A stretch of 64,000 nucleotides of DNA, from assembly GCA_937884755.1 (NCBI GenBank), contig CAKZYJ010000470.1, positions 1 to 64,000 of the forward strand. Reading direction: 5' to 3'. Position 1 is the first letter of the stretch, and every line of letters starts with the position of its first letter. Below the pieces are notes generated by a model. It searched no databases and was not told where the DNA came from. It worked only from the letters and a program-made list of their open reading frames with translations. Below are positions 11,414 to 17,201 of this stretch, in pieces. Both the position numbers and the translations under genes were made by a program. The DNA is from an uncultured Flammeovirgaceae bacterium. Lineage in GTDB: Bacteria; Bacteroidota; Bacteroidia; Cytophagales; Cyclobacteriaceae.

Positions 11414-11591
11414 AATATTCAACATACACATTGGGGCTGCGAAAGCGTGAGTGGATGTATAATAATCTACCCCGAGCTGCCACCTCTTACATCGGCCATG
11501 AATTTTTCTAATACTAAGTAGTAAAAAATACCAAGCTTTTTATCGGTAGAAAAATGGTTGAAAGACCTAGCTTTGCTCAAAACGAGGTACT

Positions 11592-12665
11592 ATGGTTGAT
11601 GTAAAGCATTTGAAATTAATTGTTGAGATTGATCGGCTAGGATCGCTCAGTCGAGCGTCAAAGGAATTAAATTTAACCCAATCTGCTCTAAGTCATCAGC
11701 TAAAAAATCTGGAAGAATATCTAGGAATTAGCGTTTTTCATCGGGTAGGAAATCAGCTATTATTTACTGAAGCTGGTAAGGAATTGCGGGATAAAGCCAA
11801 ACACATGATGACTGAGTTTGAAGCTCTCGAGTTAAAAATACAAGAGATCAAAGCAAGCCAGCTTAAGCGGTATGTGCATGGGTACAGCCAGCAAGAAGCC
11901 CAGCGGCTAGCTGATCAGGCCAGTACCGTGGCCGAGTACTTACACTATGATTCAATCTGGGAAGAAGAATCTAGAATATTAGAAGTTGGCTGTGGAGTGG
12001 GGGCTCAGACCGAGATCATTGCTCAAGCAAATCCTAAATCACAGTTTGTCTCCATTGATATCTCGGCGAACTCCCTAGAGATTGCTCGGGCAAAAATTGA
12101 AGAACAGCAGATTCAGAACGTTGAATTTCGGTTGCAGGATGCCAGAAAAATGAGCAAAGAAAAAGACGGGCTTTTTGATCATGTCTTTATCTGTTTTCTT
12201 TTGGAGCACTTAAGTACACCGGTTGAGCTACTGAAGGCTTTAAAGCATTTAATTAAGCCTGGGGGAACGATTACCGTTATTGAAGGTGATCATGGCTCAA
12301 CATTCTTTCATCCGGATAACGCGTTTGCTCAAAAGGTGGTTAGCGCCCAAGTTGCGTTGCAGCGAAAGCGAGGGGGAAATGCCAACATCGGTAGAGCGTT
12401 ATATCCTTTCCTGAACGAAGCTGGCTACAAAAATATAGCGGTAAGCCCCAGACAGATATACGTAGACGGTTCTAAGCCAAAATTAGTAGAAGGGTTTATT
12501 AAGAATACATTTACGGCGATGATTCAGGGCATGTCAGAGGGTATTCTTTCCGAAGGGGTGCTTACCAAGTCCGACTTACAAGAAGGCATTCGGGGACTGC
12601 TAAGAACCGCGGAAAGTGACGGGGTTTTTAGCTACACTTTTTTTAAAGCCCGGGCGATAGTTTAA
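11592..12665 (+). CDS. LysR-type HTH domain fused to a SAM-dependent methyltransferase
   Basis: Protein of 357 residues. Residues 4-62 are a LysR-type winged HTH (LKLIVEIDRLGSLSRASKEL, LTQSALSHQLKNLEEYLG, VFHRVGNQLLFTEAG). Residues 63-92 look like the LysR dimerisation helix. From about residue 94 (YVHGYSQQEAQRLADQAST) a complete class I methyltransferase begins, with motif I ILEVGCGVGAQT (129-140), an acidic strand end FVSIDIS, HVFICFLLEHL, and PGGTITVIEGDHGS. The usual LysR effector-binding domain is missing and the methyltransferase stands in its place. A stretch like 94-110 is, as I recall, the N-terminus of free-standing methyltransferases of this family, so the junction is sharp. GAGG lies 6-9 bases before the ATG. 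Substrate and regulon are unknown. Confidence 0.9.
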   Translation: MVDVKHLKLIVEIDRLGSLSRASKELNLTQSALSHQLKNLEEYLGISVFHRVGNQLLFTEAGKELRDKAKHMMTEFEALELKIQEIKASQLKRYVHGYSQQEAQRLADQASTVAEYLHYDSIWEEESRILEVGCGVGAQTEIIAQANPKSQFVSIDISANSLEIARAKIEEQQIQNVEFRLQDARKMSKEKDGLFDHVFICFLLEHLSTPVELLKALKHLIKPGGTITVIEGDHGSTFFHPDNAFAQKVVSAQVALQRKRGGNANIGRALYPFLNEAGYKNIAVSPRQIYVDGSKPKLVEGFIKNTFTAMIQGMSEGILSEGVLTKSDLQEGIRGLLRTAESDGVFSYTFFKARAIV

Positions 12666-16196: not shown

Positions 16197-16520
16197 ATGA
16201 AAGACGTTTCAAATCCCATTACAGAAATGGATGAACAGGAGTATGAGCAGTGGCAGCGCTCAATTCCGGCCCAGGTATTTCTGAACTATTTCTATGCGCT
16301 TAAACAACACATTACCGTTGCCGCGGAAGCGTATAATCTGAATAAAATAAATAATTTTCAGCAGTTAGAAGTTACGCTTACTGATAATGAAAAGGAATCA
16401 CTGAAGCGACATCTACTGAATAGCTGGAATACTGAATACACCATTCGGCAGACCGCTGCTTTGGGCGATATTGACTATCAGCAACACGCGCTCTACTGGA
16501 CATTCCCGAATGCCTTCTAG
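16197..16520 (+). CDS. Hypothetical protein, N-terminal part of a gene split by an in-frame TAG
   Basis: 107 residues from ATG 16197 to TAG 16518-16520. No family recognised; the segment is helical and acidic (EMDEQEYEQWQRSIPAQVF, VTLTDNEKESLKRH) with no signal or membrane segment. The reading frame continues open immediately after the TAG for another 226 codons (through 17201). The two parts together would make a protein of about 334 residues. Either a point nonsense mutation has inactivated the gene or the short form is the real product. Confidence 0.55.
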   Translation: MKDVSNPITEMDEQEYEQWQRSIPAQVFLNYFYALKQHITVAAEAYNLNKINNFQQLEVTLTDNEKESLKRHLLNSWNTEYTIRQTAALGDIDYQQHALYWTFPNAF

Positions 16521-16538
16521 AGTGTTGAGGAATGTTTA

Positions 16539-17201
16539 TTGGCATTGCGACTTGGTCAGCAGAATTGTTACCGTACCCGCGCCCGAGTTCTTCCGGAAGC
16601 TGGTCGGCTGGTGAAGCAAAAGTTCTATCCTGCGCCCTTATCATTTTACGCTTTCGGTGGGGCTCATCATCCTTCAATCTATGGGTTACCCAACGGTCGG
16701 TGGTCTAAACCGGCTTTAACATTAGCCCAAGATGAGCGGGAATCTCAGAGCCAGTTACGGCAGTTTTTGCGCACCACGCACCGACAGCGATCACAGCAGG
16801 TAAGAACCCGTGTGCAGAGTAATCCGCAAATTGCCTTGCGTAGTGAGCGCAGTGGTGACATACTCCGACGGTTTACCCGCGAACATTGGCAGAAGTTAGC
16901 CTGGCGAACTGGCTACACTACGGTGTTTCACTTACTACAAAGGTTAGTCGTCTCGGCTTCCAATCGGGAAATAGAGCGTTTCGTAGTTGCTGACATCGAT
17001 ACTCAGTTATTTCACGAGTCTTTACTCGAAGTGATTAGCTATATCAACTTTGTGCACGAAGCCTACGTAGCGCAGGCGGTTGGCCTGGAAACCTACGAAC
17101 ATTGGTTGGCTGACCTTCCGGTTTACCTTCAGCGTAGCTTCCTCACCAAGCGTTATAGAGTCCATATTTCACCGGTGCTTACGCAGGAAACCGCCGCTTG
17201 A
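16539..17201 (+). CDS. Hypothetical protein, C-terminal part of the TAG-split gene
   Basis: About 220 residues, same frame as 16197-16520 and separated from it only by the TAG and six sense codons. It contains no methionine at all, and its best nominal start is a TTG at 16539, so independent translation is doubtful. The sequence is basic and helical (Arg/Gln-rich middle, QLRQFLRTTHRQRSQQVRTR). The last about 90 residues are more hydrophobic (TVFHLLQRLVVSAS, LLEVISYINFVHEAYVAQA). No domain recognised. It is most simply the tail of the upstream gene. Confidence 0.55.
   Translation: MALRLGQQNCYRTRARVLPEAGRLVKQKFYPAPLSFYAFGGAHHPSIYGLPNGRWSKPALTLAQDERESQSQLRQFLRTTHRQRSQQVRTRVQSNPQIALRSERSGDILRRFTREHWQKLAWRTGYTTVFHLLQRLVVSASNREIERFVVADIDTQLFHESLLEVISYINFVHEAYVAQAVGLETYEHWLADLPVYLQRSFLTKRYRVHISPVLTQETAA

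Follow-up and report, generated by a model that had tools for sequence, protein, structure and literature searches.

We identified a protein in which a LysR-type winged helix is joined to a SAM methyltransferase in a single intact open reading frame. The gene lies in a 64,000-nucleotide stretch of DNA, the whole of which is referred to here as the window. The fusion is almost certainly real, and paired MetR-type boxes with a near-constant phasing, newly seen here, stand at the promoters of the fusion genes. We propose that the protein is a self-contained, autoregulated SAM methyltransferase, whose LysR domain would control its own promoter and whose methyltransferase domain would act as the sensor, a reading to which we give somewhat better than even credit. 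Put in evolutionary terms, a LysR lineage may have replaced its ligand-binding domain with a catalytically active SAM methyltransferase that reads its cofactor or substrate and switches its own gene through a two-box operator; this fuller statement stands, in our judgement, at about even. No description of a LysR-methyltransferase protein was found in the open-access literature, in agreement with the first-pass annotation of this DNA, which knew of no described example.

The N-terminal part of the protein matched the Pfam model HTH_1 (PF00126) with an E-value of 4.5e-18 and 65.4 bits, against a cut-off of 26.6, and the boundaries that the first-pass annotation had given to the LysR winged helix (residues 4-62) were right. 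Further along the chain, Pfam methyltransferase models, of the general and small-molecule type, matched residues 126-239 above their cut-offs (E 8e-21), and a free methyltransferase from Methanosarcina mazei (PDB 3mgg_A) aligned with residues 91-353 with an E-value of 7.5e-80. The effector domain of LysR regulators (PF03466, LysR_substrate) had no Pfam match in the fusion protein, which bears out the earlier claim that the methyltransferase stands in its place. An AlphaFold2 model consists of a winged helix at residues 4-58, one long helix at residues 60-94 and a Rossmann methyltransferase; it was built from a 5-sequence alignment and has a mean pLDDT of 68 and a pTM of 0.54, with low confidence at residues 86-94. 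Its top structural match was 3mgg with both Foldseek and VIA-align. A dimerisation-like helix had been claimed at residues 63-92, and a methyltransferase with an intact SAM motif I from residue 94; the predicted helix, the 3mgg alignment and the invariant motif I agree with these claims. The features are collected in Table 1.

Table 1. Features of the fusion gene and its upstream region (positions in the window)
Feature	Position	Strand	Basis
LysR HTH-methyltransferase fusion gene, 357 aa	11592..12665	+	ORF; kept in 14 species
LysR winged helix, HTH_1, residues 5-63	11604..11780	+	Pfam; invariant recognition helix
Linker/dimerisation-type helix, residues 60-94	11769..11873	+	predicted model
Class I SAM methyltransferase, 3mgg family, residues 91-353	11862..12650	+	PDB alignment and structure matches
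SAM motif I LEVGCGVGAQT, residues 130-140	11979..12011	+	invariant residues
EGDHGS motif, residues 231-236, family-specific	12282..12299	+	invariant residues
Box 1 TGAATTTTTCTAA (T-N11-A), upstream half of predicted operator	11499..11511	+	motif search
Box 2 GTAAAAAATACCA, 22 bp downstream of box 1	11521..11533	+	degenerate in window, clear in relatives
-7 promoter element TAGCTTTG (Bacteroidota TANNTTTG), 69 bp from box 1	11568..11575	+	distance scoring

The same junction was found in 13 other species, making 14 Bacteroidota species whose proteins are 52-90% identical to that of the window. Two of these species belong to the window genus (90 and 86% identity) and three to other genera of the window family (53-58%), where 6 of the 196 genomes searched carry the fusion. 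The remaining eight (52-67%) are from genomes whose titles name Saprospiraceae or Lewinella, or that were drawn from their family: seven from the 150 genomes searched there, and one from a match in GTDB. Further class- and phylum-wide genome samples yielded no additional fusions. The searches covered Bacteroidota genomes, plasmid, phage and viral records, and one GTDB scan for close relatives. Because 14 species have a common junction, a frameshift or an assembly join, which the first-pass annotation had named as a possible refutation, is ruled out; the homologue count that it had called for thus came out in favour of the two-domain architecture.

Both parts of the protein are under purifying selection, since dN/dS among the three species of the window genus was low in each: the winged helix gave 0.05-0.14 and the methyltransferase 0.07-0.10. 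The recognition-helix residues S31, A32, L33, S34, H35, Q36, L37 and K38 are invariant in all 14 fusions. When the 14 fused proteins were compared with 7 free methyltransferases, 63 methyltransferase residues were invariant and all were intact, including L130, E131, C134, G135, V136, G137, Q139 and T140 of motif I and E231, G232, D233, H234 and S236 of the EGDHGS motif. The residues of the methyltransferase pocket are identical between fused and free forms. In the linker (residues 64-93) the helix is retained but 0 of 30 residues are invariant. Judging from these residues, the methyltransferase domain is very probably catalytically active. One genome of Saprospiraceae (G983, loci L073 and L077) has a fused copy (58%) and a free copy (54%) of the methyltransferase, with promoter boxes only at the fused gene.

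The presence of a DNA-binding domain and a methyltransferase in one chain could mean that the enzyme is recruited to DNA in order to methylate the DNA itself or a DNA-bound partner, as the first-pass annotation had offered as one of two possibilities. We found no specific support for it and regard it as barely credible: no target-recognition domain or motif of DNA methylases was found in the fusion protein, the matching Pfam models are those of general and small-molecule methyltransferases, and the nearest relatives are free proteins that have the same invariant catalytic residues. Like the fusion, 3mgg and the free bacterial relatives, which the first-pass annotation had rightly said to exist, align end to end with residues 91-353 and have motif I and the EGDHGS region intact; unlike the fusion, they are devoid of any DNA-binding part. 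The PDB entry of 3mgg assigns it no function.

The fused winged helices form one clade in a phylogenetic tree (support 97/98), which groups with MetR-like full-length LysR proteins encoded in those genomes (86/76). Those MetR-like proteins score best or second best against the NCBIfam MetR model, although below its equivalog cut-off. The fused winged helix is 33-34% identical to annotated metR genes, and its best match among solved LysR structures is MetR (5fo5). On this evidence the fused winged helix derives from MetR-like LysR regulators. The fusion itself is not a MetR by the equivalog model, which matched the fusions over the winged-helix part only, with 45-63 bits against a cut-off of 382. 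It shares with MetR the lineage of the winged helix and the same 13-15 bp box, TGAA-N5-TTCA, but has a methyltransferase instead of the homocysteine-binding effector domain, and its apparent target is its own gene, whereas the targets of MetR are metE and metH. As in LysR regulators generally, there are an HTH_1 domain, a predicted long linker helix and T-N11-A boxes at its own promoter (weak in the window), but there is no C-terminal PF03466 effector domain; we therefore regard the fusion as a variant and not as an ordinary member of the LysR family.

A winged helix ahead of a SAM methyltransferase is also the layout of the O-methyltransferases Rv2258c, RdmB and DnrK (Methyltransf_2 family, PF00891), in which the N-terminal domain is used for dimerisation. 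All three are among the whole-length structural matches of our model, and by analogy the winged helix of the fusion could be a dimerisation or scaffold domain only, one that does not bind DNA. However, the N-terminal domain of these enzymes is not LysR-like and is placed differently (rmsd near 15 A), and no dimerisation-domain model was among the Pfam matches of the fusion, whose N-terminus is a true LysR HTH_1 well above the cut-off with an invariant recognition helix. The relationship to MetR-like DNA-binding proteins and the phased MetR-type boxes of the promoters, described below, also argue against a purely structural role, which we hold to be quite improbable. By its domain assignments the fusion is not a Methyltransf_2-type enzyme with a dimerisation winged helix.

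Once a copy cut at a contig end is set aside, the fused proteins fall together in the methyltransferase tree, on one side of a branch whose support is modest (78/71), and one fusion event is the simplest reading. The copy set aside is that of G396, which had appeared to be a free one nested among the fusions and was omitted from a second tree. The window genus is placed among the Saprospiraceae copies, which suggests horizontal transfer of the fusion gene. A viral or mobile origin was rejected, as no relative was found in viral contigs; the best matches in phage records were MetR winged helices, and the best plasmid matches were free or other methyltransferases. In one genome (G473, L048:9031-11124) a full-length MetR-like LysR gene lies directly 5' of the fusion on the same strand, perhaps as a relic of the acquisition of the winged helix.

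A similar solution has likely arisen independently on a plasmid of Streptomyces sp. NBC_00053, where a PadR-methyltransferase protein (WP_266501534.1) has, like the fusion, a helix-turn-helix and a class I methyltransferase and is of similar length. Unlike the fusion, its helix-turn-helix is of the PadR type and its methyltransferase is of another lineage (26% identity). The gene (L189:596-1633) is annotated only as a methyltransferase, and similar matches occur on several other Streptomyces plasmids.

The fusion gene of the window is flanked upstream by a sulfatase gene (PF00884) and downstream by a gene of PF07632 (Sde182 nucleoside-hydrolase-like), which we take to be the DUF1593 gene of the first-pass annotation; the flanking genes reported there were thus both found. 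Neither the fusions nor the free methyltransferases have neighbouring genes in common beyond close relatives. The sulfatase and the nucleoside-hydrolase-like gene are therefore incidental and uninformative on function, an inference of function from neighbours was rejected, and the fusion gene seems to travel and work alone. Elsewhere in the window, positions 16197-17201 hold open reading frames of 107 and 220 amino acids, where two species of the same genus (L045 and L046) have a single one of 333-335 amino acids; the split is a frameshift, a pseudogene or an assembly error near 16520-16540.

A de novo motif search, run on ten non-redundant regions upstream of the fusion genes, turned up a common 13-mer, TKAA-N5-TTCA, with a motif score of 144.5 against 115 +/- 4 (maximum 125.5) in 40 shuffled sets. 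Two such boxes at exactly 22 bp gave a summed score of 139, against 102 +/- 2.7 in shuffles, and the maximum over any box spacing in 300 shuffles was 113. Box 1 is 68-69 bp upstream of the -7 element TANNTTTG (71 in L048), with a distance score of 72 against a control maximum of 57 in 500 shuffles; matches to the -7 element are imperfect in L047, L073 and L075. From the start codon, by contrast, box 1 is a variable 85 to 106 bp away. Joint promoter scores were 15-21 for the fused genes; the free methyltransferase genes reached 11-15 and control regions 10-15. The data on which the boxes were scored had also contributed to the consensus, though the shuffles were scored identically. The boxes of the window are the weakest of the 14, agreeing with the consensus at 11 of 16 positions, which alone would not be significant, and box 2 is hardly recognisable there without the relatives. 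Saprospiraceae copies that are fairly close to one another already differ to saturation, or nearly so, at synonymous sites, and recent descent therefore does not explain upstream DNA shared there. The published MetR consensus is TGAA-N5-TTCA, extended ATGAA-N5-TTCAT (PMC3353975, PMC13393422, PMC4239095). The fusion box is a LysR-type T-N11-A box equal to this consensus.

Boxes stand in front of each fusion copy, and the enzyme therefore probably controls its own production. It could be argued that the boxes are read by a separate full-length MetR-like LysR protein, so that the fusion gene would be a target and the fused winged helix would have another role. All four genomes of the window family that were examined contain a MetR-like LysR, and one such gene adjoins a similar double box. 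In three genomes (G983, G849 and G941; metagenome assemblies of unstated completeness) the fusion and its boxes are present, but no MetR-like full-length LysR was found among the HTH_1 proteins, so the fusion is most likely the reader of the boxes there. The free methyltransferase genes, moreover, have no such boxes. We give little credit to a separate reader, and consider that the fusion protein very probably binds its own promoter.

A search of the 14 genomes for the complete operator gave four matches at one mismatch, all of them promoters of fusion genes, and one further match at two mismatches, beside a MetR-like LysR gene. A wider regulon was rejected: with up to three mismatches there were 34 matches against 16 for a reversed-pattern control, 5 of the 34 being own promoters, and matches to the single-box pattern outside the own promoter look like background, and only in one pair of close relatives do they recur at a shared gene. 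In two closely related Saprospiraceae species (L083 and L104), orthologous genes for a TonB-type receptor are preceded, at about 20 bp, by a TTAATTCTTTTCA box, which possibly marks a second target or is due to chance. G403 (L150:4976-5055) has a comparable pair of T-N11-A boxes, together with a -7-like element, in the interval that separates a MetR-like LysR gene from a divergent gene for a small aspartyl-protease-like protein. Further target genes are not apparent, and the enzyme would therefore mainly set its own level.

Enzymes that are also transcription factors are known as trigger enzymes; BirA and PutA have the two functions in one chain, and the enzyme part reads the metabolite state. 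The fusion, known here from its sequence, resembles them in having an enzyme and a DNA-binding domain in one chain, but is built on a LysR chassis with a SAM methyltransferase. In the mechanism that we propose, the linker helix would dimerise the protein and a pair of dimers would occupy the two boxes, whose distance of 22 bp, two helical turns, is compatible with a LysR tetramer that binds and bends DNA. The methyltransferase domain would replace the usual periplasmic-binding-protein-like sensor, and SAM, SAH or a methyl-acceptor in the enzyme domain would alter how far apart the DNA-binding heads stand and thereby switch transcription. The signal is probably SAM, SAH or the substrate bound by the enzyme domain. 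Both boxes are situated upstream of the core promoter without overlapping it, which suggests activation, not repression. The one-component regulator of the first-pass annotation thus gained a candidate operator, the double T-N11-A boxes, and a MetR-like source for its winged helix, whereas the recruited enzyme offered beside it gained no specific support.

The winged helix might also act on its own promoter simply as feedback on the amount of enzyme, with the methyltransferase sensing nothing for regulation. An operator found only at its own gene and a linker without invariant residues would both fit such ligand-blind autoregulation. However, a full enzyme pocket has been kept in cis with the winged helix across 14 species, which fits coupling better, and regulation by LysR proteins generally relies on ligand-driven changes in the C-terminal domain. 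We consider ligand-blind autoregulation rather unlikely and incline to the view that transcription is under ligand control.

LysR proteins make up one of the largest regulator groups in bacteria, and as a rule their sensor domain has a single fold. If our reading is true, the DNA-binding part and the tetramer switch of LysR would be so modular that an enzyme of unrelated fold could drive them. The fusion offers a tractable test case, in which a single gene has a single promoter and a single predicted operator and the cofactor class is known. It may also help to find the function of the widespread 3mgg methyltransferase family, because whatever conditions switch the promoter would be a pointer to the substrate.
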